Positions 6,243 to 31,380 of a stretch of 64,000 bases of DNA are shown piece after piece (the first letter of the stretch is position 1; each line of letters opens with the position of its first letter). The notes beneath the pieces are model-generated. The model was not told where the DNA came from. It made no database searches and was given only the letters and a program-made list of their open reading frames with translations. Both the position numbers and the translations under genes were made by a program. The stretch lies in NCBI RefSeq assembly GCF_000328525.1, contig NC_019964.1, positions 558,001 through 622,000 of the forward strand, given 5' to 3'. The stretch is from Halovivax ruber XH-70 (GTDB lineage Archaea; Halobacteriota; Halobacteria; Halobacteriales; Natrialbaceae).

Positions 6243-6268
6243 GGTTCGTTCGCCAATATGCGGACGCA

Positions 6269-6592: not shown

Positions 6593-7024
6593 TTATCTCG
6601 AGCGCGCCCGCTCGCGTAGCGTTGCTCCCTCGTCGGTTTCGACGTCGAGATCGGGGACGGAGACGGTCTTCCCCGACTCGTCGATCGCGACGAACGTGAA
6701 CGATGAGGCCGTCGTTCGTTCGGTGTCGCCCGTCCGCGGGTTCTCGCGCCAGGCCCGGAGTGCGACCTCGGCGCTCGTCTCGCCGGCGTCGAAGACGTAG
6801 GCCTCGATCAGGGCCGTGTCACCGACGTGAAGCGGGCGCTCGAAGGCGAGCTCGGTCACGCCAGCCGTGACGCAGGGCTCGCCGGCGAAGCGCGTCGCCG
6901 CCATCGTCCCCACCTCGTCGAGCCACCGCATCAAATTGCCGCCGTGGAGCGTCCCCAGGCTGTTCGCGTGGTGCGGTTCGACCCGAAATCGATTCCGAAT
7001 GCGGGTCTCGAGAAGCGTCGGCAT
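6593..7024 (-). CDS. Acyl-CoA thioesterase, hotdog fold
   Basis: The 143-residue single-domain protein has the hotdog thioesterase signature: LGTLHGGNLMRWLDEVG (23-39), with the candidate catalytic Asp36, and the later strand pattern AYVFDAGETSAEVALRAW. YciA/acyl-CoA hydrolase-type enzymes cleave acyl-CoA to free acid and CoA in the cytoplasm; the substrate here is unknown. The ATG at 7024 begins MPTLLETRIRNRFRV. The frame is open upstream but overlaps the RfcC gene and lacks family resemblance there. It lies 165 nt downstream of rfcC on the same strand. Confidence 0.88.
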   Translation of the reverse strand: MPTLLETRIRNRFRVEPHHANSLGTLHGGNLMRWLDEVGTMAATRFAGEPCVTAGVTELAFERPLHVGDTALIEAYVFDAGETSAEVALRAWRENPRTGDTERTTASSFTFVAIDESGKTVSVPDLDVETDEGATLRERARSR

Positions 7025-7188
7025 ACCGGACCCACGTCCGGTCGGGGTAATAGAATGGCGCCGAACATGGCCAACCAGGACGATGCTGGCGCCGCACATG
7101 CCAGCGAGTGGCTGGTGTCCCGTCCGTACCGGTCGACGGTGGCACCGCTGTTCGCGATGTAAAACTCTACAACCCGCCTCCAGGATCG

Positions 7189-8193: not shown

Positions 8194-8292
8194 CGATGCG
8201 GGCTAGGGGAAGCCACCGTAAGAATCGGTCGGTTGGCGTCGCGTTCGGACCGCGATCGAGTGCTACCTCGGCGGTGAGCCAGGTCGACGAAC

Positions 8293-9378
8293 TCAGTCCG
8301 TCTCGGCCTCCGGGACCTGTACCGTTGCCCGAACCGGATTGTCGCCGAGTTCGTACGGGGCCGGTTCCGCACCCGCGGCGGGGTCGTCGCGGTAGACGAT
8401 CGCCGTCAGGTTCGAACCGGGTGTGACGTTGCCGACGTCGAGCTCGACGTCCGCGTGGACGCCTGGCGAGAGACGATCGCTGGTCGCCAGCCGCGTGCCG
8501 TTGTCGTCCTCGACGGCGACGTAGCCGCCCTCGGGGACGCCCGCCTCGACGACCAGTTCCGACGTCGAGACGTTCTCGACGGTGACGTGGGCCGGTCCGT
8601 CGTACTCGACGTCGATTTCGTCTAGCGTCCCGTTTCGTTCGGTGTAGACGCCGTAGGTGTGCGAGCCATTGCCGATGTCGGCCAGACCGACCTCGTAGGT
8701 GACCTCGCGCGTCTCGTCCGCAGCGAGTGAGAACACCTTTCGCTCGTAGAGATCGCCGTCGACGCGGAACTCGGCGTGCTGGCGGAGTTCGTTCGCCGTC
8801 GGATTACGGATCTCCGCGACGAACTCGACCGGTTCGCTGGTCCGGCCCTCCGACGGACCCGACAGTGACGTGACGACGAACGAGCGTTCGACGTCGTCGG
8901 GGCGCTCGACGGCCGTCACCGACGCCGTCTCGGAGACGGGATAGCCGTCGACGACGTAGGGGCGGTCACTCTCACCGTCCTCGTCTCGCGGGTCGAACTC
9001 GCCGTCGTCGCTACTGTCTATGTGCGCGGTTGCCGTCAGGCTCCCATAGAGAGAGCCGTCTGCCTCCGCAGTCGCCTCGACGGAGACGTTGTCGTGACTC
9101 CCCTCTGAGAGGTGCTCCGACACGCCCACGACGGTTCCCGATTCGTCGGTCACGACGACGAACCCACCCTCAGAGAGTGAGACGGACGAGACGACGACCG
9201 ACTGGCCGTCGGATTCTTGCGAGTCGAACGTGAGTGAGGCTTCGGGCTCCTGCGCGACCTCGGCGCCGAAGAGTTCGGGAGCCTGTCCGACCACCAGCCC
9301 GGCCCCCACCACGATGGCGATGGCGATCAACACGGCGACAACCAGTTTGAGACGACCGAGCGAGGTGGACGGAGACAT
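8293..9378 (-). CDS. Membrane-anchored surface protein with two DUF7282-like domains
   Basis: The 361-residue product has one N-terminal hydrophobic segment (about 10-33) and no lipobox or Arg-Arg motif, so it is probably anchored by that helix with the rest outside. Residues about 45-150 and 265-360 repeat a beta-domain with the pattern GGFVVVTDE..VVGVSEHLSEG and GGYVAVEDD..LATSDRLSPG, which I recall as DUF7282. A CARDB-like domain lies between (EFVAEIRNPTANELRQHAEF). The composition is strongly acidic with several N-x-S/T sites. No enzyme signature is seen. It is divergent from RNase Z. Confidence 0.75.
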   Translation of the reverse strand: MSPSTSLGRLKLVVAVLIAIAIVVGAGLVVGQAPELFGAEVAQEPEASLTFDSQESDGQSVVVSSVSLSEGGFVVVTDESGTVVGVSEHLSEGSHDNVSVEATAEADGSLYGSLTATAHIDSSDDGEFDPRDEDGESDRPYVVDGYPVSETASVTAVERPDDVERSFVVTSLSGPSEGRTSEPVEFVAEIRNPTANELRQHAEFRVDGDLYERKVFSLAADETREVTYEVGLADIGNGSHTYGVYTERNGTLDEIDVEYDGPAHVTVENVSTSELVVEAGVPEGGYVAVEDDNGTRLATSDRLSPGVHADVELDVGNVTPGSNLTAIVYRDDPAAGAEPAPYELGDNPVRATVQVPEAETD

Positions 9379-9547
9379 GTAGTGGTGTCGTACGGATTCC
9401 TACGTGCTGGACGTACTTTACTCATGCTTCGTCCCGAATTTCGATAGCTGTTTCCATCGTGGACGAATGGGGCGAAATCGACGGGCTGTGCCAAACGACG
9501 GGGCGGTTTCGAAGGGGGTTTAGGCGCCTGTATCCGACCACGTACTG

Positions 9548-10483
9548 ATGTCGTTACGCGTGACGTTCCTCGGGACCAGCGGGGCGATACCGACGGTCGC
9601 CCGCAATCCGTGTTCGATCTTCGTCGCCCGGGAAGGGGATTCGCTGCTCTTCGACGCCGGCGAGGGAACCCAGCGCCAACTCATGCGCTATGGGACCGGC
9701 TTCGACATTTCCGAGCTGTTCGTCACGCACGTTCACGGCGATCACGTCCTCGGGATCCCGGGTCTCTTGCAGACGATGGACTTCAACGACCGCGAGCGGA
9801 AACTCCGGATTCACGTGCCACGAGGGACGCGCCGCCAGGTACGCGAACTGGCGTTTTCACTCGATGCGCACATCTCGTTTCCCGTCGAGATCGCGGACGT
9901 CGACGACGGCGACGTCGTCTCCCGCGGCGACGAGTACGAGGTCCGTGCCTTTCGGACGGATCACGACACCCGGTCGGTCGGCTACGCACTGGTCGAAGAC
10001 GAGCGCAAGGGCCGATTCGACCGCGAGCGCGCGGAGGAACTCGGCGTGCCGGTCGGCCCGAAGTTCTCGCAGCTCCACGAGGGCGAGCCGGTCGAGCTCG
10101 ACGACGGGACCGTGGTCAGACCGGAACAGGTCGTCGGCGAGCCGCGACCAGGGCGCAGTCTCGTCTACACCGGTGACACCCGCCCGACGGCGCGGACGGT
10201 CGAGATCGCCGACGAGCCGGACCTGCTGATCCACGACGCGACCTTCGCCGACGACCGCGCCGAGCGGGCCGCCGACACCGCCCACTCGACGGCCCGGCAG
10301 GCCGCCGAGATCGCCAACCGGGCCAGTGCGAAACGGCTGGCGCTGGTCCACCTCTCCTCGCGATACGCCGGCGATCCCGCCGCCCACCTCGCGGAGGCCC
10401 GCGAGACGTTCTCGGGCGACGCCGACGACGTCTCCCTGCCCGACGACGGGACCGAGATCGAGATTCCGTACCCGGACGCCTGA
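9548..10483 (+). CDS. rnz: Ribonuclease Z (tRNA 3'-processing endonuclease)
   Basis: The 311-residue metallo-beta-lactamase protein starts MSLRVTFLGTSGAIPT and carries the zinc ligands THVHGDH (60-66), later VYTGDTRPT and a C-terminal LALVHLSSRY. This is the short form (ElaC type). It cuts precursor tRNA just after the discriminator base in the cytoplasm; the tRNA-Gly in this window lacks an encoded CCA, so it would need this enzyme. A TTTAGG-like element about 28 nt upstream may be the promoter. The DUF460 gene follows on the same strand after 90 nt. Confidence 0.94.
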   Translation: MSLRVTFLGTSGAIPTVARNPCSIFVAREGDSLLFDAGEGTQRQLMRYGTGFDISELFVTHVHGDHVLGIPGLLQTMDFNDRERKLRIHVPRGTRRQVRELAFSLDAHISFPVEIADVDDGDVVSRGDEYEVRAFRTDHDTRSVGYALVEDERKGRFDRERAEELGVPVGPKFSQLHEGEPVELDDGTVVRPEQVVGEPRPGRSLVYTGDTRPTARTVEIADEPDLLIHDATFADDRAERAADTAHSTARQAAEIANRASAKRLALVHLSSRYAGDPAAHLAEARETFSGDADDVSLPDDGTEIEIPYPDA

Positions 10484-10543
10484 ACGGGTCACCCAGACAC
10501 GGACTGTCAGTTGCTCCCGGCAGATTTCCGCACCCGCGTCGGA

Positions 10544-10550
10544 TTTATAC
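10544..10550 (+). promoter_or_regulatory. TATA box deciding the GTG start of the DUF460 gene
   Basis: TTTATAC is centred about 27 nt before the GTG at 10574. That spacing predicts a leaderless transcript starting at the GTG, which rules out the upstream ATG at 10511 that would place the TATA box inside the coding region. Confidence 0.65.
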
Positions 10551-10573
10551 GCGGTCCGGCCCTACCATCGGAT

Positions 10574-12547
10574 GTGCACACGCGAACGAGTGCGCTCGAT
10601 TCGGTCGTCTTCGGCGTCGACGTCCACCAGGGGGACGTCCGGGGTGACGCCTCCTACGCGCTCGTGGTGCTGACCGACGACGGCGTCGAGCGAGACGTGG
10701 TCTCACATCGGAAGCTACGGCGACTCATCGCCGGTCGGGAACCGGCGATCGTGGCTACCGACAACATGTACGAACTCGCCGCGGACAAGGACGCCCTCAT
10801 CCACTTTCTGGGCTCGCTCCCGGCGGAGACCAGGCTCGTCCAGGTGACCGGCGACGAGCGCCCGGAGCCCCTCTCCCGGGTCGCCAGCCGCCACGGGATT
10901 CCGTACGGGTCCGATCCAATGCAGGAAGCCGAGGCCGCGGCCAGGCTCGCCGCGCACAACGTCGGCCAGGAGGTCTCCGCCTTTACGGACACGACCGAGG
11001 TGAAGGTCTCACGCGGGCGTTCGACCGGCAGCGGCGGCTGGAGCGAGGACCGCTATACGCGACGGATTCACGGCTCCGTCAAGAAGCGCGCTCGCGAGGT
11101 CGAATCCGAACTCGACGAGGCGAACATCGACTACGAGCGCGAGGTCCGCGAGGCCTACGGCGGCTTCGCCAACGCCGTCTTCACCGTCCAGGCCCGACCC
11201 GAGGACATTCCCGTCTCGGCGGCGCGTTCGGGCGACGTTCGCGTCGAGATCGAGCGTGAGCGCCGCGACGGCATCGAGTTCCGCCCGCTCGCCAAACGCC
11301 TAGAGTACGTCGTGGTGGGGATCGATCCCGGGACGACGACCGCGGTCGCCGTCGTCTCGCTCGACGGGCAGGTCCACGACGTCTGGAGTTCGCGAACGAG
11401 CGACACCGCCGACGTGATCGAGTGGATCGTCGAGCGCGGCCGGCCGGTCGTCGTCGCCGCAGACGTGACGCCGATCCCCGAGACGGTCGAGTCGTTCCGG
11501 CGGAGCTTCGACGCCGCCGCCTGGACGCCCGAACGCGATCTGGCGATCGACGAGAAGCAACACCGCACTCGCGAGCACCCCTACGACGACGATCACCAGC
11601 GCGACGCCCTGGCAGCCGCCCTCTTCGCCGCCGACGCCCACGAAGATCAGTTCGAGCGGATCGCCGCGAAGGTGCCACCGGGCGTCGATCGAGGCGTCGT
11701 CATCGACCGTGTCGTCGCCGGCGAGGAGTCCGTCGAGGCGGTCCTGGCGGACCTTCAGGACGACGCCGAACCCGAAGAGCCTGACGAGACCCACGAGCCG
11801 CGAGAACTCACGCCCGAGGAAAAACGGATCCGCCAGCTCGAAAACCAGGTCGATCGCCTCCAGGACCACGTCGCGGAGCTCGAAGGACAGGTAGCCGAGC
11901 GCGACGAACGCATCGACTCGCTCGAAGCCGACCTCGAGACGGCACGGAGCGAAGCCCGCAGAGAGGTCCGGACCGATCGCGAGGTCACCCGGCTGAAGCG
12001 GCGGGCGAATCAGCTCGAACGTGAGCGTGACGACGCCCGCGAAGAGGCCGCGGCGCTCGAAGACAAGGTCGATCGGATGAAGGCGCTCTGGAAACTCGAT
12101 CACTCGAACTTCGCCGACGTCTCGGCGAAGAAGGCGGGGCTGGTCCCCGTCAAAGTGATCGAGAAATTCACTCGGGACGCGATCCGCGAGGCCGACGAAG
12201 CCTACGGACTGGCCCCCGACGACGTCGTCTTCCTCCGAGACGCGAGTGGCGCCGGTCGATCCACAGCGACCGCACTCGCCGAGTACGACCCGCGCGTCGT
12301 CTTGCGAGCCAAGGGCGGCCTCTCCGAGGTCGCCGATCGCATCCTCTTCGACGCCGAGATTCCGGTCGCCCCCGCGGACGACGTCGCCATGCAGGAAGTC
12401 GACGAACTCGCCGTCGCCCGCGAAGACGACGTCGAAGCGGCTATCGATGACTGGCGCACCAGAGCGCGTGAACGAAAGCGCGAACGCAAGGCGTCTATGG
12501 TCGATCGCGTCATCAGCGAGCATCGCGCGGGCGACAACGAGGCGTGA
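10574..12547 (+). CDS. DUF460 family protein (RNase H-like domain plus coiled coil)
   Basis: The 657-residue protein has an N-terminal domain with VVFGVDVHQGD, an RNase H-fold segment VVVGIDPGTTTAVAVVSLDG (about 244-263) with a DDDHQRDALAAALFAAD stretch downstream, a long charged coiled coil (about 415-510) and a C-terminal domain rich in Val/Asp. This is the archaeal DUF460 layout, predicted to act on nucleic acid, but I know of no established function. The GTG start is supported by the TATA spacing. It lies 90 nt after RNase Z on the same strand, so an RNA-processing link is possible but unproven. Confidence 0.85.
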   Translation: MHTRTSALDSVVFGVDVHQGDVRGDASYALVVLTDDGVERDVVSHRKLRRLIAGREPAIVATDNMYELAADKDALIHFLGSLPAETRLVQVTGDERPEPLSRVASRHGIPYGSDPMQEAEAAARLAAHNVGQEVSAFTDTTEVKVSRGRSTGSGGWSEDRYTRRIHGSVKKRAREVESELDEANIDYEREVREAYGGFANAVFTVQARPEDIPVSAARSGDVRVEIERERRDGIEFRPLAKRLEYVVVGIDPGTTTAVAVVSLDGQVHDVWSSRTSDTADVIEWIVERGRPVVVAADVTPIPETVESFRRSFDAAAWTPERDLAIDEKQHRTREHPYDDDHQRDALAAALFAADAHEDQFERIAAKVPPGVDRGVVIDRVVAGEESVEAVLADLQDDAEPEEPDETHEPRELTPEEKRIRQLENQVDRLQDHVAELEGQVAERDERIDSLEADLETARSEARREVRTDREVTRLKRRANQLERERDDAREEAAALEDKVDRMKALWKLDHSNFADVSAKKAGLVPVKVIEKFTRDAIREADEAYGLAPDDVVFLRDASGAGRSTATALAEYDPRVVLRAKGGLSEVADRILFDAEIPVAPADDVAMQEVDELAVAREDDVEAAIDDWRTRARERKRERKASMVDRVISEHRAGDNEA

Positions 12548-12593
12548 GCGACGCGAGCTCGCCGACCGAACGGCCGCGGTTCGCAAAACCGGT

Positions 12594-12773
12594 TTAGAAC
12601 ATTCCGAACGACTGCATCACGGAGGTGATGAGTCCCTTCGCGATCAGCGCGATGCCGACGAGTACCAGTGCGAGGCCCACCGCCACTTGCCAGTAGTACA
12701 GGCCGATGAAACCGAGACCAGCGAGTAGCAGCACGATTCCGGCCAGTCCGCTCATTCCGAGCTTATCGATCAT
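12594..12773 (-). CDS. Small two-helix membrane protein (DUF7470-like)
   Basis: The 59-residue product, [19 protein letters not shown] onward, consists of two adjacent hydrophobic helices rich in Gly/Leu/Val, with a Lys near the end of the second and a short C-terminal tail. I associate this pattern with the haloarchaeal DUF7470 family from memory. It is an integral membrane protein of unknown role. The open frame extends 28 codons upstream but those residues are basic and atypical. An AATAAAG element about 25 nt before the ATG fits a leaderless promoter. It is divergent from aIF1A. Confidence 0.7.
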
Positions 12774-12907
12774 ACGCCGAGTGGCCGGGCCTGACGAATA
12801 AAGACGCTGATTCGATTCCGATCGGCAACGGCCCGGGCACAGAAAGGCGCCCACCACGCTCGGAACAACCGTTAACAGTTAAACGCCTCCGACACGAACC
12901 GCTGCCC

Positions 12908-13195
12908 ATGAGTGACGAGGAGGGCGGTCGGAAGAACCTCCGAATGCCTGACGACGACGAGGTGTTCGCGACCGTCACGGACATGCTGGGGGCGAACCGG
13001 GTCAAAGTGCGCTGTGCCGACGGAACGGAACGAACGGCCCGCATTCCGGGCAAGATGCAAAAGCGCATCTGGATCCGCGAGGACGACGTCGTCCTCGTCT
13101 CGCCGTGGGACTGGCAGGACGAGAAGGCCGACATCACCTGGCGCTACGAGAAGGCCGACGCCGATCAACTCCGGCGCGAGGGCCATATTCAGTAA
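12908..13195 (+). CDS. eif1A: Translation initiation factor aIF-1A
   Basis: The 95-residue S1/OB-fold protein reads [20 protein letters not shown], then [23 protein letters not shown] and [19 protein letters not shown], all diagnostic for archaeal eIF1A. It occupies the A site of the small ribosomal subunit during start-codon selection. Length and sequence are canonical. A TTAAAC element about 30 nt upstream fits a leaderless promoter. A T-rich tract directly follows the gene. Confidence 0.97.
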
Positions 13196-13202
13196 CCCGA
13201 AC

Positions 13203-13207
13203 TTTTT
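13203..13207 (+). terminator. T-run after aIF-1A
   Basis: TTTTT followed by CTC lies 8 nt beyond the aIF-1A stop, a plausible U-rich termination signal. The hairpin cluster starts 10 nt further on. Confidence 0.5.
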
Positions 13208-13217
13208 CTCTGTCGTT

Positions 13218-13409
13218 CGAGAGAGCGGAGCTCTCTCGTGATGACGAAAGGCGCAAAGCGCCTTTCGAACCACGGGCGCGGCGTAGCCGCGCTCTCGGAA
13301 AAATCCTCAAAAGAGCCGGAGGCTCTTTTGGACCTCGCGGAAGCGAAGCTTCCGCTTAGCTTCGATGAAAAGCACTCCTCCCTCCCCGCCAGCCGCGCTT
13401 CGCGCGGCT
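13218..13409. repeat. Cluster of six perfect inverted repeats with 3-nt loops
   Basis: Six unrelated hairpins stand in 192 nt: 13218-13238 (9-bp stem, loop GGA), 13245-13267 (10 bp, AAA), 13276-13292 (7 bp, extendable to 9, GTA), 13308-13330 (10 bp, GGA), 13337-13355 (8 bp, GAA) and 13391-13409 (8 bp, TTC, that is GAA on the other strand). Stems differ in sequence but loop size is always three. Five of the six have a G-N-A loop on one strand, the type known to make very stable DNA mini-hairpins; one contains exactly GCGAAGC. The region from 13196 to 13696 has no recognisable gene. A looser 8-bp inverted repeat (13464-13471 with 13488-13495) follows. Confidence 0.85.
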
Positions 13410-13696
13410 TCTCGGTCGGTCGTCGGCCCGCTCGCTCGGCTCACGGCCCTGCCGTTCGCCGTCCGTGGTTCTCGGCCTTCGACCTCCGAACCACGCTTCG
13501 CTCGCGGTGAGGATCACATGGCGCGTCAACCGGGCGCATCCGAATTCGCCGGTCCCATCAGTCATCGCTGGTTACCCGGGATTCGCCGCACTGGCGTCGG
13601 AGCGGCCTAAAACATCGATTCTGACAGAAAACCAGCACAGAATATATGTAGAACATGATCAATAGTCACGGTTGTGAGTCACGCGTGAGTGGTAAT

Positions 13697-15256
13697 ATGA
13701 GCGACAACGGGGGTGAATCGTTTCCGGACGAACTCTCCGACTCGGTCGGAGGTGAAGAGATCGAGTTCTACGGCGGTCGTGGGATGAGCGCGGTGCCGAT
13801 CCTCTTCTTCATCGTGTGGGCGATCTTCCAGACCGCATTCTTACGGATCTCGAGCGAGCGTGGGCTCGTCCTCGGGATTCTCATCGGGCTGATCGCCGGG
13901 ATGTTCTTCGTGAAAGGCTCCTGGCGCGGCTACGCGAGCACGATCTTCGAAGGGATGACCCAGCCGGTCGCGGTGACGGCGATCGTCGCCTGGGTCTGGG
14001 CGGGCATGTTCGCGGAGACGCTACAGGCAGGTCAGTTCGTGGGCGGCCTGCTCTGGTTCGCCGAGGCGGCCGGTGTGACGGGCACGCTCGTGCCCGCGAT
14101 CACGTTCGTCCTTGCGGCGCTGCTCGCGACCGGTATCGGCACCGGCTACGGGACGACGATCGCGTTCGTCTCGCTGTTCTTCCCGGCGGGCCTCGTCCTC
14201 GGGGCGAACCCCGTCCTGCTGTTCGGCGCCATCCTCTCGGGGGCCATCTTCGGCGACAATCTGGCACCGGTCAGCGACACGACCATCGTCAGCGCCGTCA
14301 CGCAGGATTCGGACATCGGCGGCGTCGTCGCCTCGCGGTTCAAGTACGCGATCGTCGCTGCGATCGTCGCGTTCATCGGGTACGTGGTCGCGGGGTCGAT
14401 GATGAGCGGTGCGGACATCGCCGGAAACGCGGAGACGATTCTGGGAGATGCGACGAACGCGGTCGGGCTGGTCCACCTGCTCTCGATGGGGGTGGTGATC
14501 GTCACCGCGGTCGTGGGTCGCCACATCGTCGAGGCGATCTCCTGGGGGATCGTCGTCGCCGTCGTCGCGAACCTGACCCTCGGACTCGCGTCCGCAGGTA
14601 CGATGCTCACCTTCGAGGCGCCCGACAATGCGCCCGGAGCCGAGCTCCTGGAACCACTCCCGATCGTCGAGACATTCGACCCCCAGCTGGACAGGAGCGC
14701 CGAGGTGACCGGCAGCCTCGTCGAGGGCGCGGCCGGCTTCTTCACGCTCTCGATCCTCGTCCTGTTCATCATCGCGGCGGCCCAGATCATGATCCGCGGC
14801 GGGGCGTTCCAGGCGGTCCTCGACTGGTCGCTCGACAGTCTGGCGACGAACGTGCGCAACGCGGAGCTGACGATGGTCGGCTCGGCGGCGCTCATCAACG
14901 CGACGATCACGATCAACACCGCCGCCGAGGTCGCCATCGGGCCGTACATCTCCAAAGTCGGCGAGCGGTTCAACATCAACGGCTACCGCCGGGCGAATAT
15001 CTTGGACGCACAAACGTCCGCGCTCGGCTACATCTTCCCGTGGTCCGGCGGCGTCCTCGTCGGCTTCACGACGATGCAGGAGTTACCCGCCGACTTCGAT
15101 TTCTTCACCGACGCGATGGTCATCAATCCGATCGACGTCGTCCCCTACGTCTTCCACGGCTGGCTGCTCGTGGCGGTGTTCGTCCTCGCGGCGATCACCG
15201 GCTTCGGTCGTGAGTACACTATCGACCGCGAGTCCACGGAGGTGTCGCGCGTATGA
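13697..15256 (+). CDS. Na+/H+ antiporter, NhaC family
   Basis: The 519-residue protein has about 11-12 hydrophobic helices and NhaC-type motifs: LLATGIGTGYGTTIAFVS, SGAIFGDNLAPVSDTT and ALGYIFPWSGG. It exchanges sodium for protons (or acts on a related organic ion pair) across the cytoplasmic membrane, a key function in high salt. The ATG at 13697 (MSDNGGESFPDEL) gives an acidic cytoplasmic N-terminus; an ATG 14 codons upstream at 13655 lies too close to a TATATG element. It overlaps the next gene by 4 nt (ATGA), implying translational coupling. Confidence 0.9.
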   Translation: MSDNGGESFPDELSDSVGGEEIEFYGGRGMSAVPILFFIVWAIFQTAFLRISSERGLVLGILIGLIAGMFFVKGSWRGYASTIFEGMTQPVAVTAIVAWVWAGMFAETLQAGQFVGGLLWFAEAAGVTGTLVPAITFVLAALLATGIGTGYGTTIAFVSLFFPAGLVLGANPVLLFGAILSGAIFGDNLAPVSDTTIVSAVTQDSDIGGVVASRFKYAIVAAIVAFIGYVVAGSMMSGADIAGNAETILGDATNAVGLVHLLSMGVVIVTAVVGRHIVEAISWGIVVAVVANLTLGLASAGTMLTFEAPDNAPGAELLEPLPIVETFDPQLDRSAEVTGSLVEGAAGFFTLSILVLFIIAAAQIMIRGGAFQAVLDWSLDSLATNVRNAELTMVGSAALINATITINTAAEVAIGPYISKVGERFNINGYRRANILDAQTSALGYIFPWSGGVLVGFTTMQELPADFDFFTDAMVINPIDVVPYVFHGWLLVAVFVLAAITGFGREYTIDRESTEVSRV

Positions 15257-23105: not shown

Positions 23106-23379
23106 GACAGGACCAGGCGCCGGTATCGCCAAAAGCGTATCGCGTTCGACCGAGGCTGTCGACGGTGTACACGCCCCACGAACACGACTCACAGGGACCA
23201 GCTTGTCGCATTGCTCACTGGTGAACACAGGCCACAGCGACAACTGGCGGCGGTCACGACCGACGGACCAGCCCAGCCATCACGGACCCACCTCGACTGT
23301 CGAACCAGCAGGAATCTAGTGACCGGTGGCTGCATCCGAGACAGGTGTTTGGCCGGCCTAAAACGGGAGAACACGCTGG

Positions 23380-23386
23380 TTTTATC
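23380..23386 (+). promoter_or_regulatory. TATA box of the aconitase gene
   Basis: TTTTATC is centred about 31 nt before the aconitase ATG at 23414, consistent with a leaderless transcript and with rejecting the upstream in-frame ATG at 23345. Confidence 0.6.
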
Positions 23387-23413
23387 AGTGCCGATAGCGG
23401 ATTTGGAGACGCT

Positions 23414-25384
23414 ATGGGACAAACACTTACCGAGAAGATTCTCGAGGATCACCTCGTCGAGGGCGACCTCGAAACCGGCGAGGAGATCGGCATCGAGATC
23501 GATCAGGTCCTCACCCAGGACACGACGGGAACGATGGTCTGGCTGCAGTTCGAGGCGATGGGGCTGGACGAAGTCCAGACCGAGATCGCCGCCCAGTACT
23601 GTGACCACCAGACCTACCAGTTCGACTTCAAGAATACGGACGACCACCGATTCCTGCGCTCTGCTGCCGGCACCTACGGCGCTCACTTCTCTCGCCCCGG
23701 CAACGGTATCTGTCACAACGTCCACCGCGAGAACTTTGCCGCCCCCGGCAAGACGCTGCTGGGTTCTGACTCGCACACGCCGACCCCTGGCGGTCTCGGC
23801 GAACTCGCCATCGGCGCCGGCGGGATCGACGTCACCGTCGCGATGGGCGGCGCGCCGTACTACATCGAGATGCCCGAAGTCGTCAACGTCCGCCTCGAGG
23901 GCGAACTGCCCGACTGGGCGACCGCGAAGGACGTCATCCTCGAACTCCTGCGACGCCTGACCGTCAAGGGTGGCGTCGGCAAGATTCTGGAGTACACGGG
24001 GCCGGGCGTCGAGACGCTCACCGCCCCCGAGCGGATGACGATCACGAACATGGGCACCGAACTCGGTGCGACCTCCTCGATCTTCCCGACCGACGAACAG
24101 ACCGAGGACTACCTAGAACGCGTCGGCCGCGGCGGCGAGTACGTCCCGCTCCAGCCCGACGACGACGCCGAGTACGACGACGAGATCGTCGTCGACCTCT
24201 CGGATCTCGAACCGCTGATCGCACAGCCATCGATGCCGGACAAGGTCGTCCCCGTCAGCGAAGTCGCTGGCACCGACGTCGACCAGGTCATCGTCGGCTC
24301 CTGTACGAACGGCGCCTACGAGGACGTCCTTCCGGCCGCGAAGATGCTCGAGGGCCGCGAGGTCAACAAGAAGACCGAGATGATCGTCGCCCCCGGCTCG
24401 AAGCAGGCCTCCGAACTGCTCGCCCGACAGGGCTGGGTCGCCGAGATGATGGCCGCCGGCGTCAACTTCTCCGAGGCGACCTGTGGCGCTTGCATCGGCA
24501 TCGGCCACGTCCCGGCTTCCAACTCCGTCTCGCTGCGTACCTTCAACCGCAACTTCGAGGGGCGCTCCGGCATCGAGGACGACAACGTCTATCTCTGCTC
24601 GCCGGAAGTCGCCGCCGCTGCCGCGCTCAAAGGCGAGATCGTCGATCCACGCGACCTGTCCGACGAACTCGGCGACCTCGAGGCGCCCGGCTTCGAACTC
24701 GCCGAGGAGTACAACGCCTCGAAAGCCGACCTTATCACCCCCGACGAGGCCGTCGACGACGAGCTCGTCAAGGGCCCGAACATCGGCGAGGTGCCCCTGC
24801 GTGAAGGGATCGACGAGGACATCGCGGGTGAGGTCCTGCTCAAGATGGACGACAACATCACGACGGACCACATCATCCCCGCGACGCAGGACATCCTGAT
24901 GTACCGCTCGAACATCGACAAGCTCTCCGAGTTCACGCTCAGCCGCGTCGACGAGACCTTCGCCGACCGCGCGGCCGAAGCTGACGGCGGCGTCCTGCTC
25001 GCCGGCGAGAACTACGGTCAGGGCTCCTCGCGCGAACACGCCGCGATGTGTCCGATGCACCTGGGCGTCGAGGCCGTCCTCGCCCAGAGCTTCGCCCGGA
25101 TCCACCGCGCGAACCTCTTTAACTTCGGCATCGTCCCGCTCGTCATCGACGAGGACGCCTACGACGGCATCGACCAGGGCGACGAGGTCGAGATCGTCGA
25201 GGACGTCGAGACCGGCGTCTCCGAAGGGCGCTCCGAGTTCACCGTGACGGTCAACGGCGACGAGGAGTACACCGCGACGCTCGACGCCTCCCAGCGCGAA
25301 CGCGACATCCTCGCTGCTGGCGGCAAACTCTCCTGGACCAAGGCACAGGCGCAGTCGGGATCCGACGCACCGGCAGACGACTGA
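23414..25384 (+). CDS. acnA: Aconitate hydratase
   Basis: The 656-residue enzyme has the [4Fe-4S] ligands Cys297 (GSCTNGAYEDV), Cys357 and Cys360 (TCGACIG), LLGSDSHTPTPGG near residue 120, and the swivel-domain active-site loop YGQGSSREHAA near 535. It isomerises citrate and isocitrate in the TCA cycle. The length of about 655 residues is the archaeal/mitochondrial-like form, shorter than the 890-residue AcnA of many bacteria. The C-terminus ends in an acidic tail. It appears monocistronic and is convergent with the DUF1102-type gene (96 nt gap). Confidence 0.97.
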   Translation: MGQTLTEKILEDHLVEGDLETGEEIGIEIDQVLTQDTTGTMVWLQFEAMGLDEVQTEIAAQYCDHQTYQFDFKNTDDHRFLRSAAGTYGAHFSRPGNGICHNVHRENFAAPGKTLLGSDSHTPTPGGLGELAIGAGGIDVTVAMGGAPYYIEMPEVVNVRLEGELPDWATAKDVILELLRRLTVKGGVGKILEYTGPGVETLTAPERMTITNMGTELGATSSIFPTDEQTEDYLERVGRGGEYVPLQPDDDAEYDDEIVVDLSDLEPLIAQPSMPDKVVPVSEVAGTDVDQVIVGSCTNGAYEDVLPAAKMLEGREVNKKTEMIVAPGSKQASELLARQGWVAEMMAAGVNFSEATCGACIGIGHVPASNSVSLRTFNRNFEGRSGIEDDNVYLCSPEVAAAAALKGEIVDPRDLSDELGDLEAPGFELAEEYNASKADLITPDEAVDDELVKGPNIGEVPLREGIDEDIAGEVLLKMDDNITTDHIIPATQDILMYRSNIDKLSEFTLSRVDETFADRAAEADGGVLLAGENYGQGSSREHAAMCPMHLGVEAVLAQSFARIHRANLFNFGIVPLVIDEDAYDGIDQGDEVEIVEDVETGVSEGRSEFTVTVNGDEEYTATLDASQRERDILAAGGKLSWTKAQAQSGSDAPADD

Positions 25385-25480: not shown

Positions 25481-26419
25481 TCACTTCGAGCCCGTCGGGA
25501 CCCGGATCGTGACGAGCGGCGGTGAGCCATCGCTGGTAGCCCCGGAATCTGTGAGGAGAACGTCGAATGCGGCGGTCAGCGAGGGTGAGCGGCTGGAAGT
25601 GTCGCGCTCGATGACGGTCACGGACACGCCTGCGCCCGTTCGAACGGTGGGTGGGCCGACCGAACGACCACGATCGGCTGATTTGGCCGGAATGGGAGCC
25701 TGATCGTTATCGGCAGCGACCGACACGGACGGCTGATCGATGGCTGACGACCGCTCGAACCGAACGAGAAGGCCCCCAGTCTGCCGAAATCCGGGAACGG
25801 CAACCTGCCTGCAGCGAACCCGCGCTCCCGATCGATCGTCGATCACCACGAGACCGATCGATCCCGGTCGTACCCGCCGAAGGAGGACGATTTCGTAGTC
25901 CGCAGCCGAGATCTCAGCGATCCCCGCAGCGTCGAGCGAGACCGATCGCCGGACGGTCGCCGTCGTCTCCCCCGTTTCCGATCGGGCCTGGAACGTCACG
26001 GCGTCGGTGGCGGATTCGAACGGGTCTGCTGGCGAGATGGCGACAGTGTGAGCAGTGCCTGGGTCGAGCGCTGGGAGCGTGAGTGGCCGGGTGCTACACT
26101 GGGTCGTTCCCCCTCCGAGACGACGAAATTGCAGCCCGTCGGCCGCAGACCGGAGGGTAACGGTCACCGACTCGGTCAGTCGGTTCGCGATCGAAACCGT
26201 CGCTGGTGCCGACTGCGAACCATCGGCATCGAAGAGGGTGCCAGCCGTCTCGACGCCGGCGTCTCCCTCCACGAGGCCGATATACGCGTCCGCGTCGTCG
26301 GCGGTGGCGACCGACACCCGCCTGTCGACCTCGGTGGTGGACGAACCGAGGGTTCCGGCCGCCAGTAGTGTCCCGGAACCCAGGATGGCGATCGCCGCTG
26401 CACGTCGCGTGTAGGTCAT
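25481..26419 (-). CDS. Secreted DUF1102-like protein, long variant
   Basis: The 312-residue precursor has a Sec/SipW-type signal (MTYTRRAAAIAILGSGTLLA) followed by DRRVSVATADDADAYIGL, the same mature start seen in the two plus-strand DUF1102 proteins of this cluster (V-A-x-A-D-D-A-x-x-Y-I/L). The first 150 mature residues form beta-rich segments (APATVSIANRLTESVTVTL); the second half, about 160 residues, is extra and not recognised. It is probably an extracellular subunit or tip component. Its ATG overlaps the stop of the HTH regulator gene by 4 nt, so the two form a coupled operon divergent from the other subunit genes. Confidence 0.68.
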   Translation of the reverse strand: MTYTRRAAAIAILGSGTLLAAGTLGSSTTEVDRRVSVATADDADAYIGLVEGDAGVETAGTLFDADGSQSAPATVSIANRLTESVTVTLRSAADGLQFRRLGGGTTQCSTRPLTLPALDPGTAHTVAISPADPFESATDAVTFQARSETGETTATVRRSVSLDAAGIAEISAADYEIVLLRRVRPGSIGLVVIDDRSGARVRCRQVAVPGFRQTGGLLVRFERSSAIDQPSVSVAADNDQAPIPAKSADRGRSVGPPTVRTGAGVSVTVIERDTSSRSPSLTAAFDVLLTDSGATSDGSPPLVTIRVPTGSK

Positions 26420-27027
26420 CGGTGCTCCCGATAGTCGAATTCGACGTCGAGTCGGTCTTCGTCGATTCCGAGGCGAGAGCGACGGGCGACGTACCGGTGT
26501 GCGAGTGCGAACACGCTGAACGAGACGACGACGAACACCGTGACGGCACGGGCTGGCAGGACGGTGAACGGAACCACCGAGACCGACGAGGCGACGAGGA
26601 CGAGCACGGAGAGTGCCGCGAGTCCCAGATAGTAGTCGCTCCAGGGGAGTTCGCGGCCGCGAACGACGTCCATGTAGATCTCGACGTTCTCGAGCGCCGC
26701 TGTCGGCTCGACCGTGCCACGATCCCGATCGAAGTCGACGACACCCGACCGATCCAGCTTCGGCAAGTGTGATTGCTGCAGTGCCGTGTAGACCCGTTTC
26801 CGATCCTTGCTCGAGACCTCCTCGAAGGCGAGTCCGTCTTCCTGCGCAGCGATCTCCTGAGAGATGGTCCCGATATCCAGTGTCGTCCCTTCTCGCAAGA
26901 GTGCGTTGAGAATGTGTCGTCGCCGACCGTTCGCCAGCAACTCGAACAGTTCGTCTTCCGTCAGCCGGCGACTCTCCGACGGTGACGAACCGCTCCTGTC
27001 GACCGTCTCGTGTATGGTGCCCCCCAT
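26416..27027 (-). CDS. Membrane-anchored HTH regulator (DUF7344-like)
   Basis: The 203-residue protein has a winged-helix-like domain (about 20-110: LTEDELFELLANGRRRHIL, then VYTALQQSHLPKLDRSGVV) of the haloarchaeal DUF7344 type, followed by two hydrophobic helices (about 128-150 and 154-172) and a short acidic tail. It would bind DNA from the membrane. The position, divergent from two DUF1102 genes and directly coupled to a third, suggests it controls the secreted-fibre cluster. The ATG at 27027 is chosen because a TTTATTTTAC element sits about 28 nt upstream. The regulatory role is an inference. Confidence 0.8.
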   Translation of the reverse strand: MGGTIHETVDRSGSSPSESRRLTEDELFELLANGRRRHILNALLREGTTLDIGTISQEIAAQEDGLAFEEVSSKDRKRVYTALQQSHLPKLDRSGVVDFDRDRGTVEPTAALENVEIYMDVVRGRELPWSDYYLGLAALSVLVLVASSVSVVPFTVLPARAVTVFVVVSFSVFALAHRYVARRSRLGIDEDRLDVEFDYREHR

Positions 27028-27050
27028 TCGGACAAAAACAACTATTGGGC

Positions 27051-27073
27051 GTAAAATAAAAGTAACTATTACT
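27051..27073 (-). promoter_or_regulatory. TATA box and 13-bp dyad before the HTH regulator gene
   Basis: On the minus strand TTTATTTTAC (27060-27051) is the likely TATA element, about 28 nt before the ATG. Directly upstream, AGTAACTATTACT (27061-27073) is a perfect inverted repeat of AGTAA around CTA and covers the BRE position, so a protein bound there should block TFB. Autoregulation by the encoded regulator is a guess. Confidence 0.6.
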
Positions 27074-27236
27074 CTCATTCGAGTTTTTAAATCTCGGTAT
27101 TATAGTAACAGTTGCACGAGCTGGTCGCCGACGACTCGAGGGCGACGGATGACGTCAGCAGCGTTCGGGAGAGACACGACCCGGGGTGTGGGAATGGCGT
27201 CGCCGAGAGACGGCAGCAAACCCGCTCAACGGCTCG

Positions 27237-27377
27237 TTGACCCCAGTCAATGTATCGTCTCGACTGACACTGACAGGAGAATCACCAGTTGACCGGCAGT
27301 CAACGACCTCCGTACCCGGGAGCACATCTCGTAGTCGAGGGGTTGAGAATTCTTTCGAGGAGTTGACCGTCGGTCAA
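27237..27377. repeat. Three TTGAC-n-GTCAA dyads upstream of the DUF1102 genes
   Basis: Three inverted repeats share the half-site TTGAC: 27237-27250 (4-nt spacer), 27288-27304 (GTTGAC..GTCAAC, 5-nt spacer) and 27363-27377 (TTGACC..GGTCAA, 3-nt spacer). They lie 86 to 226 nt before the first subunit gene, in the 435-nt divergent intergenic region that holds no gene. Variable spacers argue for recurrent short half-sites rather than a copied block. A separate dyad GTATTACAATAC (27404-27415) lies closer to the plus-strand start and may include the promoter element. Confidence 0.65.
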
Positions 27378-27462
27378 TGCCGTCCGGAGTCGAGTCCACG
27401 ACCGTATTACAATACCCATCTCCCGACTGGGTCGATTCGTCCCGGAAGGGGCGAGACCAACT

Positions 27463-27978
27463 ATGCAACGACGAAAATTCGTAATTGGGATGGGAGCGCT
27501 GGCATCGGGCGCCGCTGCGATGGTCGGAACCGGCGCCTTCACCTCTGTGACGGCCGCTCGAGATATCGACGTCGCGGTTGCTGACGACGCATCCGCCTAT
27601 CTGCGACTGAAGGGCACTGATTCGCACTACGTCACCGACGACGGCGATGGTGGCACGCTCGCGCTCGACCTCAGCGGGGATAATGCAACGCCATCGGGCG
27701 GCTCGGGTGTGAACCCGAACGCCGTAACCGAGTTCGGATCCCTGTTCGAGGTTGCGAACCAGGGGACCCAGCCGGTCACCGTCGAGGTGACGAAATCCGG
27801 ACAGCACCCGGGAGCGGTCGCGTTCGAGGACGGAAACGGCGACGAACTCGCCGACGGCATCGAACTCGACGTCGGTGAGAGCGCCGACATCAGCCTCGTC
27901 GTCGACACGACGGACGACGCGATCGACGTCGACGAACAACTGGTCGACTCGGTCGTCTTCCACGCGGTCGATACCTAG
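27463..27978 (+). CDS. DUF1102-type secreted protein A (TasA-like candidate)
   Basis: The 171-residue precursor has the signal MQRRKFVIGMGALASGAAAM followed by VGTGAFTSVTA and a mature start ARDIDVAVADDASAYLRL. The G-T-G-A-F before the cleavage zone and the V-A-V-A-D-D repeat are hallmarks of DUF1102 and resemble SipW-dependent signals. The mature part is an all-beta acidic domain with VNPNAVTEFGSLFEVANQGT, shared with the next gene. It is probably an extracellular structural subunit. Its stop is 4 nt before the next ATG. No Cys is present in the mature part, and there is no lipobox. Confidence 0.78.
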   Translation: MQRRKFVIGMGALASGAAAMVGTGAFTSVTAARDIDVAVADDASAYLRLKGTDSHYVTDDGDGGTLALDLSGDNATPSGGSGVNPNAVTEFGSLFEVANQGTQPVTVEVTKSGQHPGAVAFEDGNGDELADGIELDVGESADISLVVDTTDDAIDVDEQLVDSVVFHAVDT

Positions 27979-27982
27979 GACG

Positions 27983-28555
27983 ATGGAACGCAGAACATTC
28001 GTCCTGAGTGCCGGTGCGATCGTCGCTGGTGGCGGCCTCGCACTCGGCACCGGGGCGTTCGACAGCGTCGAGGCCGAACGGGACGTCACCGTTGCGGTCG
28101 CGGACGACGCCGACGGCTACCTGAGCATCCGGCCGCACGACGGACCAAACGGCGCGTACGCGACGATGGACGGCGGCGAGCTGGCAGTGGAACTGACCGA
28201 CGCCAACGGCGCTGTCGCCGGCGACGGCGTCAACGCGAACGCCCTGACGGGGGTCGCGAACCTGTTCACGATCCAGAATCAGGGAACGAACGAGGTCGAA
28301 CTCGCCGTCTCGCCGCTCACGTTCCTCGACGTATCCGGGAGCATCTTCCCGCCGAGCATCGACGGCGTCCTGGGCGTCTTGCTCGTCCCACAGAGCGGCA
28401 ACTGGAGCGTCGATCCCGAGCGCGGGGTGCTCTCGATCACCGACCTCACCCCGGGTGAGGAGACCGACTTCAGCCTCGCGGCCGTCGCGTTCCCGGAGAG
28501 CGCGATCGACGAAGTGGAGATCGACGACGAACTCCTGATCACTGCGGAGGCCTGA
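27983..28555 (+). CDS. DUF1102-type secreted protein B (TasA-like candidate)
   Basis: The 190-residue paralogue of the preceding gene starts MERRTFVLSAGAIVAGGG, continues with GTGAFDSVEAERDVTVAVAD and has VNANALTGVANLFTIQNQGT in the same place as protein A. A hydrophobic insertion (FPPSIDGVLGVLLVPQSGNW) between two strands distinguishes it. It ends ELLITAEA. Presence of two unequal paralogues plus a third across the divergent promoter suggests major and minor subunits of one structure. The ATG is 4 nt after protein A's stop. Confidence 0.78.
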   Translation: MERRTFVLSAGAIVAGGGLALGTGAFDSVEAERDVTVAVADDADGYLSIRPHDGPNGAYATMDGGELAVELTDANGAVAGDGVNANALTGVANLFTIQNQGTNEVELAVSPLTFLDVSGSIFPPSIDGVLGVLLVPQSGNWSVDPERGVLSITDLTPGEETDFSLAAVAFPESAIDEVEIDDELLITAEA

Positions 28556-28557
28556 CG

Positions 28558-28680
28558 ATGGATACTGCACCGACACTCGCCGATTACGAGGAACTGGCCG
28601 ACGTCGAGATCGACCTGAGCGACACCGATCTCGACAGGGAAACGATCGATGTGGAACTGGAGCGGCTCTTCGACGCCTAA
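28558..28680 (+). CDS. 40-residue acidic protein in the DUF1102 operon
   Basis: An ATG 2 nt after the stop of protein B opens a 40-codon frame (MDTAPTLADYEELADVEIDL to ERLFDA) with strongly haloarchaeal codon use (third positions mostly G/C) and about 40 percent Asp/Glu. It has no signal or membrane segment, so it should remain in the cytoplasm, possibly as an amphipathic helix-forming partner or chaperone. It is easily missed because of its size. Tight spacing with the upstream genes is the main support. Confidence 0.6.
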   Translation: MDTAPTLADYEELADVEIDLSDTDLDRETIDVELERLFDA

Positions 28681-28916
28681 TCGAGGATAGTCGTCCACGG
28701 GCGGCTACCACCCCTTCGTCGATCCAACGGGCGTCTCAACCGGCCGCGATATTTCGTAAAAACGCCAACTCGACCGATCAGAGCCGGTTGGTGGAAAAAC
28801 CGATCGCCGACGTGACCGTCCGGAACCGATCCCGCCGATTCCGGTCACGTTCGCTAGTCCGCCACCAGTGTTGGGATGGCAGGTCCCCAAGCACCATAAG
28901 TACAATATAGTTAAAA

Positions 28917-28924
28917 TTAAATAT
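28917..28924 (+). promoter_or_regulatory. TATA box of the signal-peptidase gene
   Basis: TTAAATAT in an unusually AT-rich stretch (28896-28935) lies about 28 nt before the ATG at 28949, as expected for a leaderless transcript. The peptidase and DUF5305 genes therefore seem to have their own promoter, separate from the DUF1102 genes, after a 268-nt gap without other genes. Confidence 0.65.
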
Positions 28925-28948
28925 TTTCAAAATAGAATGCGGTAATAG

Positions 28949-30100
28949 ATGGGGCTAGCCCGAGCGGGACGGGGACTTGCGGTGGGAGCCGGAGTCGTCG
29001 TATGCCTCCTGGTAGTCGGCCAGATACTCGGGTACCCGATCCTGCTCGGGTTCGTCGAGACGGGGAGTATGGAGCCGGAGATTCCCGCTGGAGATGGGTT
29101 CGTCGCCATACCGACGCCCGTCAGTGACGACCCGGATCCGGGCGACGTCGTGGTCTTCGACGCACGCGATATCCAGGGCGGCGGACTGACCACCCACCGG
29201 ATCGTCGACGAGACCGAGGCGGGTTACGTCACGCGCGGGGACGCGAATCCGTTTACCGATCAGGATGGTGGCGAACCACCGGTAACCGACGAGCAGATTC
29301 ATGCGACGGCCTGGCAGGTCGACGGGCAGGTCGTGACGATTCCACACCTGGGTACGGTCAGCACGACGATCGGCCGGTGGGTCGACGGGGTGAACGGTGC
29401 CATCACGGGCGCGCTGGGTGTCCGAACCGGCGTGGGGTCGAGCGGCGCGGCGGCGGTACTGTTCGTCCTCTCGGTGCTGTGGTACGGCGTCGAGACCGTT
29501 CGTGACCGACGACACACGACCACACAGTCACGCTTCGCGTCCGACGTATCCGTCCCGATCGATCCGCGATATCTCTGTGCCGGGTTCGCGTTTCTCGTGG
29601 TCGTCGCGGGCGCGGGAGCCATGATCCTGCCCGGCGGGACACAGCACTACGACCTCGTCAGTGCCGAGTTCGATTCCGACGACCCGACGGTCGTCAGACA
29701 GGGAACGACCGCGGAGACGACCTACCGGGTCGAAAACGACGGGTTCGTCCCTGTCGTCGCGTACGTCGACGGCGGCGATCACGTACAGGTCGAATCGGAT
29801 CGGGTGACGGTCGGCCCACGCTCTGGAACCGATGTGCTGCTCGCGATCAGCGCCCCCGACGAGACGGGGTACTACCCGACCGCGGTGACCGAACACCGGT
29901 ATCTGCGCTTCCTCCCGAAGCCAGCCCTGGACGCCCTCAACGGGGTGCATCCTGCGGTCGCACAGCTTGCGATTCTCGCCGTGATCGGCGGTGGAACGTA
30001 CGGAATCGCCCGCGTTCTCTGGCGACGGGTGGACGACGACCCACGTGCGAGACGACAGGCCCGAACCGCGCAATCGCGACGGCGACTGGACCGACGGTGA
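28949..30100 (+). CDS. Signal peptidase I, SipW/ER type, with extracellular C-terminal domain
   Basis: The 383-residue protein has an N-terminal membrane helix (about 9-33), the catalytic serine in ETGSMEPEI (Ser40) and a histidine in TTHRIV (His83) in place of the bacterial lysine, plus GDANPFTD (97-104). This is the Ser-His form found in SipW and eukaryotic Sec11. Further helices near 160-180 and 210-228 flank an added beta-domain (about 235-320: RQGTTAETTYRVENDGF) and a last helix near 333-352. It should cleave preproteins at the outer membrane face; the neighbouring DUF1102 precursors are the obvious clients. GTGA overlaps the next gene. Confidence 0.88.
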   Translation: MGLARAGRGLAVGAGVVVCLLVVGQILGYPILLGFVETGSMEPEIPAGDGFVAIPTPVSDDPDPGDVVVFDARDIQGGGLTTHRIVDETEAGYVTRGDANPFTDQDGGEPPVTDEQIHATAWQVDGQVVTIPHLGTVSTTIGRWVDGVNGAITGALGVRTGVGSSGAAAVLFVLSVLWYGVETVRDRRHTTTQSRFASDVSVPIDPRYLCAGFAFLVVVAGAGAMILPGGTQHYDLVSAEFDSDDPTVVRQGTTAETTYRVENDGFVPVVAYVDGGDHVQVESDRVTVGPRSGTDVLLAISAPDETGYYPTAVTEHRYLRFLPKPALDALNGVHPAVAQLAILAVIGGGTYGIARVLWRRVDDDPRARRQARTAQSRRRLDRR

Positions 30101-31380
30101 CCACCATGGAACACGACCCGATCCCACACGAGAGCGATTCGAGCGACGACCGACGGCTTCGACTCCGTGCGGTCCTCGCCGAGTACCGACCGATACTGAT
30201 CGTGGCGCTGCTCGCCACCGCTGCGATGGGTGGCTGGCTCTGCTACGGTGCCTACGCGGCCCAGCCGGAGACGACCGAGGTGCGAACGGACGAAGCCTGG
30301 TCACTCTCCGGCGAGCTCCACCACAGCGCCGAGGTTGTAGACTCCACGACGCTCTACGCGGCGGGAACGGTCCTGGAGGATCGACCGCGGTACTTCACCG
30401 CTGTGACGCCGACGGCCGACGGCGAGTACGCCGTCACGTACGAGGCACACGACGGGACGGCCGACGTCGACGTCTCGATCGATCGATACGTCCAGGCGGT
30501 CGAGGGGAATACGGTGTACTGGGAGTCGGCCGAACCGGTCGCGTCGACGACGCAGACCGACGTCGAACCGGGTGAGACGGTCACCGTCGACCTGGACGTG
30601 CCCGTCGCCGATGTCGTCGATCGCATCGAAACGATCCAGGCGGAACTCGGTGCGCGACCCGGCGAGACCAGCGTATTCCTGCAGGCCACCGTCTCGGTCG
30701 AAGGATCGATCGCGGGCGCCGAGCGCTCGACCAGTGAGACCCATCGGATCCCCGTCACCATCGACGGCGGAACGTACGGGTTCGACGACGAGACCATAAC
30801 GGAACCGTATCGGGACGCCGAAACCGTCACGGTGAGCGATTCAGCCGGCCCAATCGAGTCGGTCGGTGGACCCCTCCTCCTGCTCGCCGGGCTGGGCGGA
30901 CTCGGCGGGGTTGCCGTCGCGACCCGCCGGTATCACGCTCCCACGACCGCCGAACGCGAGTGGCTCGACTACTGCGCCGACGTCGACGAACACGGCGAGC
31001 TGGTCACTCCCGCGAGCCTTCCCGCCGCCGTCACCGATCGACCACGCGCGTCGGTCGAGTCACTCGCACACCTGGCCCAGCTGGCGATCGACCTCCGGAC
31101 CGGGCTCCACTACGACCCACTCGAACGGACCTACCTCGTCGTCGACGACGAGATTCTCTACAGCTACGACCCACCGAGGCCGCCGCAGCGCCACTCGTCG
31201 CGGACTGTCGACGGGAGTCCCGCCGTTAGCCCCGATCGAGGGAGCAAGACAGGCGGGATCGTCCTCACGAGCGACGAATCGAGCGCCGGCGAATCAGCTC
31301 CTGACGAACCGGACGATGGCGTTCTCACGGCAAACAGCGATGGGGCCGGCTCGAACGATGACGGACCGGACGAGTCGTGA
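30097..31380 (+). CDS. DUF5305 family membrane protein
   Basis: The 427-residue protein has a cytoplasmic N-terminus, a helix (about 34-55), an external beta-domain of about 200 residues beginning TEVRTDEAWSLSGELHHSAE and containing DRPRYFTAVTPTADGEYAVTY (typical DUF5305), a second helix (about 255-275), and a cytoplasmic tail with a small domain and a low-complexity acidic end. Haloarchaeal genomes often place DUF5305 beside a signal peptidase, as here. A role in holding or assembling the secreted subunits is inferred. The start is a GTG overlapping the peptidase stop; an ATG 3 codons later is an alternative. Confidence 0.82.
   Translation: MTTMEHDPIPHESDSSDDRRLRLRAVLAEYRPILIVALLATAAMGGWLCYGAYAAQPETTEVRTDEAWSLSGELHHSAEVVDSTTLYAAGTVLEDRPRYFTAVTPTADGEYAVTYEAHDGTADVDVSIDRYVQAVEGNTVYWESAEPVASTTQTDVEPGETVTVDLDVPVADVVDRIETIQAELGARPGETSVFLQATVSVEGSIAGAERSTSETHRIPVTIDGGTYGFDDETITEPYRDAETVTVSDSAGPIESVGGPLLLLAGLGGLGGVAVATRRYHAPTTAEREWLDYCADVDEHGELVTPASLPAAVTDRPRASVESLAHLAQLAIDLRTGLHYDPLERTYLVVDDEILYSYDPPRPPQRHSSRTVDGSPAVSPDRGSKTGGIVLTSDESSAGESAPDEPDDGVLTANSDGAGSNDDGPDES

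Follow-up and report, generated by a model that had tools for sequence, protein, structure and literature searches.

A probable Tafi-type pilus locus in Halovivax ruber, on a branch separate from that of the solved Tafi pilus

Background

The closest solved relative of the proteins considered here is PDB 9p0a, released on 2025-07-23 and titled, according to Foldseek, as the Tafi pilus of Natrinema sp. J7-2, the subunits of which we infer to be held together by donor strands. A locus of the 9p0a type can be found via a gene that is 100% identical over the 123 printed residues of 9p0a, and it comprises genes for a pilin, a TM-anchored CARDB protein, a long S26 signal peptidase and a DUF5305 protein, together with a divergently oriented DUF7344 helix-turn-helix (HTH) gene and a TafC-like gene. 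Canonical TafA loci (e.g. locus L045) carry a similar set, consisting of a membrane HTH, TafC, a long S26 peptidase and DUF5305. From the gene order of L045, our guess is that TafB and TafD, for which there are no models, correspond to the HTH and the peptidase.

Here we compare with these systems a cluster of seven genes from Halovivax ruber XH-70, situated in a stretch of 64,000 nucleotides (hereafter the window; Table 1). An initial annotation of this DNA had proposed a secreted fibre system of TasA/camelysin type, served by its own SipW-type signal peptidase. The idea of a filament proves to be largely right, given the homology of the pilins to those of Tafi and the gene set of the locus, but the TasA label does not hold: no protein of the window matches a TasA, camelysin or TapA profile, and the peptidase scores 29.5 bits against a SipW cut-off of 190 bits. 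The Tafi pilus 9p0a, known and solved already, is more closely related to the cluster than TasA, and we are confident, short of certainty, that the cluster is a Tafi-type pilus locus of Halovivax belonging to a branch separate from that of 9p0a.

Results and discussion

Gene content and layout of the locus

All seven of the genes initially annotated are real, every one lying at or within the coordinates first assigned to it. The coupling proposed between the peptidase and DUF5305 through a shared GTGA was confirmed, with an ATG at position 30106 as an alternative start for DUF5305, as was the coupling of the regulator to one of the subunits, the HTH and C_long genes overlapping by ATGA. Furthermore, pilin B starts 4 nt past the stop codon of pilin A, and a gap of 268 bp lies between the gene for the 40-residue protein and that for the S26 peptidase. 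Matches to sigma-70-type promoters were discounted, the host being an archaeon.

Within our species collection, the most closely related locus is that of Halovivax asiaticus, in which pilin A is 97% identical. S26 and DUF5305 relatives occur within 8 kb of 20 out of 25 relatives of A, and as these 25 loci were fetched by similarity to A alone, the layout is beyond chance; two of the remaining five are situated on short or cut contigs. Moreover, the HTH gene is itself conserved as a divergent neighbour in nearly all loci. In three loci from Halorubrum and Halolamina (L015, L026 and L028), an HTH gene and pilins are present but neither S26 nor DUF5305 lies within 8 kb, which we count against the Tafi reading. 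An aconitase-like gene (window positions 23345-25384) borders the cluster and is also found close to two related loci, L075 and L077, and to judge from this neighbour the genomic site of the cluster appears to be partly conserved.

Table 1 Features of the Halovivax ruber locus (positions are those of the window)
Feature	Coordinates	Strand	Description	Evidence
C_long	25481..26419	-	312 aa; TafC-type secreted subunit, probably minor/tip	TafC match at N-terminus
DUF7344 regulator	26416..27078	-	Winged-helix regulator, membrane-anchored	PF24035, E 1.9e-25
Putative divergent promoter region	27079..27462	.	Between the HTH and pilin operons	Gene layout, same in relatives
Pilin A	27463..27978	+	171 aa; twin-arginine-type signal, then beta-sandwich	9p0a and TafE matches
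Predicted cleavage site, pilin A	27526..27540	+	GTGA/F	GxGAF invariant; 9p0a chain start
Pilin B	27983..28555	+	190 aa; tandem partner of A	9p0a and TafE matches
Predicted cleavage site, pilin B	28046..28060	+	GTGA/F	Invariant motif as in A
Acidic 40-residue protein	28558..28680	+	Conserved, without signal peptide	
S26 Ser-His signal peptidase	28949..30100	+	383 aa; second ectodomain, extra TM segments	
DUF5305 protein	30097..31380	+	Two TM, beta-sandwich ectodomain, acidic cytoplasmic tail	PF17231

Homology and fold of the pilins

In a sequence search of solved structures, chain C of 9p0a was the sole convincing relative of the two pilins (single-sequence E values of 1e-10 for A and 1.9e-13 for B), and a pilin profile built from 29 sequences matched 9p0a over nearly its full length at E 2e-30. 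The same profile gave no match to the chains of the AbpA bundling pili (7ueg) or the Sulfolobus thread (7pnb). By NCBIfam, A and B are TafE/TafA-like (TafE E values of 3e-16 and 1e-15, respectively), yet under the curated cut-offs, with A scoring 59.6 against the 155 bits set for TafE. However, the 9p0a pilin fragment itself (123 aa) scores 76.9 against the same 155 bits, and consequently the NCBIfam cut-offs define a narrower group than Tafi-type pili. The initial annotation had typed all three secreted subunits as DUF1102, which stands for A (23.9 bits against a cut-off of 22.2) but not for B (12.6 bits), all Pfam matches of which are sub-threshold, nor for C_long, for which there is no match. 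The mature start VAVADDAxxYL that the three were said to share is exact in A and B but altered in C_long, where it reads VATADDADAYI, while the second motif, VNxNA..LF..NQGT, is restricted to A and B, just as had been noted.

Structure prediction, which had been suggested as a check, yielded for mature A an AF2 model of medium confidence (pLDDT 75), in which residues 1-14 fall below 50 and form an apparently free tail ahead of a beta-sandwich. The best solved match to this model is again 9p0a (Foldseek prob 1.00; Z 9.3, rmsd 2.6, 117 residues aligned), followed by FimA, the bundling pili of P. calidifontis and the Sulfolobus thread, all at Z near 7. Unrelated Ig-like and MSP folds also match at Z values near that of 9p0a (8.3 for one Ig-like fold), and the Tafi assignment is therefore carried by homology and not by the fold score alone. 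The AbpA bundling pili (Z 7.3, with 8% identity over the structural alignment) and the Sulfolobus thread (Z 6.9, with 7%) have in common with A a beta-sandwich pilin with an extended N-terminal strand. A type IV pilin was ruled out by fold, since its mature form would start with a long hydrophobic helix, whereas mature A is modelled as a beta-sandwich that lacks any helical core. Taken with the homology, the model supports a secreted beta-sandwich pilin that possesses a disordered N-terminal tail and is homologous to a solved archaeal pilus.

TasA is not among the matches listed for the A model, which shows nothing either way. With the TasA/TapA/SipW system of Bacillus the cluster shares a secreted beta-sandwich subunit with an N-terminal tail, a clustered Ser-His peptidase and an aromatic residue just past the cleavage site (PMC10269814), whereas it differs by its twin-arginine-type signals and by the additional DUF5305, HTH and 40-residue proteins. 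Given that TasA-like proteins are able to act in matrix bundles (PMC9674648), that pilin A lacks a TM segment at its C-terminus and that the window contains no TafF-type anchor gene, the products could alternatively be beta-sandwich proteins, soluble or bundled, that form a coat belonging to a matrix or associated with the S-layer, rather than discrete pili, with the peptidase merely processing them. We consider a coat of this kind distinctly unlikely, however, as the closest relative of solved structure forms a pilus and pilus loci carry this same set of genes.

The signal peptidase and DUF5305

The catalytic pair proposed for the peptidase, Ser40 and His83, was confirmed, both residues being invariant among 15 relatives. 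Asp98 is also invariant in these 15, among which are peptidases from canonical TafA loci and from the 9p0a-type clade. With SEC11A/C as its relatives by PDB profile, the presence in the cluster of a Ser-His signal peptidase of the ER type is borne out. The enzyme has four hydrophobic segments, and in its relatives the second ectodomain gives sub-threshold Ig-like matches. DUF5305 matches PF17231 at E 5.6e-63, and its AF2 model (pLDDT 86) shows a beta-sandwich of long strands flanked by two TM helices. The structural matches of this model are generic (Ig-, arrestin- or glycosidase-accessory-like, at Z 8.4 or less), and consequently we do not read a function from the fold.

The two genes are closely associated across haloarchaea. 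A long S26 peptidase is found in 87 of 116 sampled haloarchaeal genomes, and DUF5305 is present in every one of these (87/87), while at the threshold used DUF5305 occurs without a long S26 in four of the 116 genomes and 25 have neither (Fisher p 1.5e-21). Moreover, 112 out of 122 S26 genes are situated within 10 kb of a DUF5305 gene, and 71 of the best 82 matches to the TafA profile have a long S26 peptidase no more than 10 kb away. We counted the genomes that have DUF5305 without a long S26 (4/91) against the reading of the pair as part of a Tafi machine. The association links DUF5305 and the long form of S26 with pili of the donor-strand type in the majority of the haloarchaea sampled (87/116 genomes).

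Archaeal signal peptidases process many substrates, and the best NCBIfam match of the window peptidase is the general archaeal type (sigpep_I_arch, E 2.4e-12), both of which would suit a role for the peptidase and DUF5305 as general secretion factors that are not dedicated to pilins. We regard this as unlikely, given that the long peptidase is absent from 29 of the 116 genomes, and is therefore dispensable, and that it sits with pilin genes in the manner described above.

Cleavage site and export route

The motif GxGAF is invariant across the 29-pilin alignment, and 56 of 58 pilins have GAF directly after the signal. In 9p0a, 188 residues are resolved of a sequence of 215, with the alignment extending to residue 215, and the chain, if contiguous, begins at residue 28, which is the F of GTGAF, the 27 preceding residues being missing. 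On the strength of the invariant motif and of this chain start, mature pilins probably begin at the F of GTGAF. In TasA, an aromatic P2' residue is part of the reason why LepB cleaves poorly and the dedicated SipW acts (PMC10269814), and by analogy the aromatic residue directly past the cut could plausibly explain why this cluster would have a dedicated peptidase.

An RRxPhiPhi motif is present at the start of 55 of the 58 pilins, including A and B, where it is followed by 22-27 uncharged residues, and TAT-signal profiles give weak matches in relatives. Most of the pilins thus appear to carry twin-arginine-type signals, and Tat export is predicted. Broad use of the twin-arginine route is documented in Haloarchaea, where for example 78-87% of predicted lipoproteins are assigned to it (PMC2945643). 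If the prediction is true, the pilins would cross the membrane folded, unlike TasA, and an incomplete sandwich would need protection in the cytoplasm.

The acidic 40-residue protein

The short acidic open reading frame that follows pilin B had been put forward as a gene, and it is indeed one: it is found in 11 loci, the 11 sequences have 15 invariant residues, and over ten of the loci pS (0.49) exceeds pN (0.18), values uncorrected for shared ancestry, by which measure it is under purifying selection. In 16 of 17 genomes, a peptidase gene lies no more than 9 kb from it. We considered whether the protein might substitute for the TafF anchor, and dropped this idea, as both it and a TafF-type anchor are present in loci L074 and L076. 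Since it directly follows B in the loci examined, and occurs also beside an anchor, the 40-residue protein goes with the A-B pair. Coupled with the twin-arginine signals, its presence leads one to ask what protects an incomplete beta-sandwich ahead of export.

In another Halovivax locus (L075, positions 3682-14541), a set of HTH, A, B and 40-residue genes of the window type lies without an adjacent peptidase, and adjoins an expanded array of pilin-like genes that has its own HTH, S26 and DUF5305.

C_long and the membrane HTH

C_long matches the NCBIfam TafC model over its N-terminus (E 9e-6; 25 bits against a cut-off of 410), a Pfam search finds no known domain in it, and its C-terminus varies widely among relatives. 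The TafC of L045 ends in a Laminin_G_3/concanavalin-A-like lectin domain (E 8.6e-23), suggestive of a pilus tip that binds sugars, and a tip or adhesin role is consequently likely for the TafC slot. The earlier view of the long variant as a minor or tip subunit gains support from the TafC match and from the lectin domain that ends a canonical TafC, and by analogy C_long is probably a minor subunit acting as a tip adhesin. In locus L031, the protein in the TafC slot (positions 3319-4317, minus strand) has a C-terminus of short, imperfect Asp/Gly-rich repeats.

The regulator has two C-terminal hydrophobic segments, at residues 151-169 and 179-197. In L045, the HTH and TafC genes overlap by four bases, ATGA, as do the HTH and C_long genes here, and the pairing is kept in Natrialbaceae and in Taf loci. 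This constancy, along with the wide variation of the C_long C-terminus, would also be compatible with a membrane sensing unit, in which C_long is a secreted ligand-binding sensor for the HTH and the pilins are merely a regulated output. Yet C_long carries a signal peptide, resembles a pilin at its N-terminus and matches TafC, and a lectin domain such as that ending canonical TafC is expected of an adhesin; we accordingly find a sensing unit very improbable in comparison with a pilus subunit.

Proposed mechanism

The following is what we infer for the locus with regard to the exchange of strands, processing by a dedicated peptidase, and the parts played by C_long, DUF5305, the HTH and the 40-residue protein. 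The S26 peptidase of the cluster would cut exported A and B between GTGA and F, and cleavage would leave about 20 N-terminal residues (FTSVTAARDIDVAVADDASA in A) as a free tail, which could then act as the donor strand and complete the beta-sandwich of a neighbouring subunit. Subunits would in this manner concatenate without ATP, and neither an usher nor an ATPase is apparent in these clusters. The assembly step of archaeal strand-exchange pili becomes directly testable in genetically tractable haloarchaea. C_long, which is of the TafC type, pilin-like at its N-terminus and variable at its C-terminus, would be added as a minor subunit, probably the tip adhesin, while DUF5305, with its two TM segments and Ig- or arrestin-like ectodomain, may form with the peptidase a membrane platform for assembly or anchoring. 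The membrane-anchored DUF7344 HTH would regulate both divergent operons, and the 40-residue acidic protein may be a cytoplasmic partner of pilin B.

A more elaborate version, which we hold to be a long shot, is that the pilins are exported by Tat in a folded or half-folded state, that the 40-residue protein is a small cytoplasmic chaperone lending a strand to, or holding, A and B until they are exported, and that the peptidase and DUF5305 are the counterpart, in the membrane, of a chaperone-usher platform, coupling cleavage to strand exchange.

Relation to other Tafi and Taf loci

The locus shares with Tafi and Taf systems its homologous pilins, the GxGAF region, the coupling of a TafC-like gene to an HTH gene, the long S26 peptidase and DUF5305. 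It differs by a separate peptidase clade, by two tandem pilins, by the conserved 40-residue protein, by subunit scores that all fall below the equivalog cut-offs, and by having no adjacent TafF-type anchor gene. In a tree of 35 peptidase sequences, the clade of the window is separated from the 9p0a-type and TafA-type clades by a split with support of 100/99, these two clades themselves being supported at 96/92 and 100/99, respectively. The higher-scoring class of peptidase (E about 1e-110 or lower, the next class beginning near 1e-93) is present in 34 of 101 sampled Natrialbaceae genomes.

No TafF-type anchor gene lies beside the window peptidase, whereas such an anchor is present in 9p0a-type loci and in several related ones, and there are candidates in other branches of the clade to which the window peptidase belongs (L022, L024, L025, L029 and L032). 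A search of the Halovivax ruber genome with the NCBIfam TafF model gave only weak matches, the best at E 0.03, and failed to pick up the anchor gene adjoining a second locus in that genome, from which it follows that the model is too narrow.

The sub-cut-off scores of the subunits, a peptidase outside the 9p0a and TafA clades, and the absent anchor gene all count against a Tafi identity. The separate peptidase clade, the 40-residue protein and the lack of the anchor gene, on the other hand, are the grounds on which we regard the locus as a variant. Judging from sequence, the cluster most likely represents a branch of its own, with good support, among the Tafi-type systems, and not a novel type of fibre.

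The second Tafi-type cluster of the same genome (L007, in G000:C1:344000-360000, at positions 6160-12057, or about 350-356 kb) falls within the 9p0a clade, and has a single pilin, an anchored protein, S26 and DUF5305, with a divergent HTH gene and a TafC-like gene. One genome therefore keeps two divergent versions of the pilus machine.
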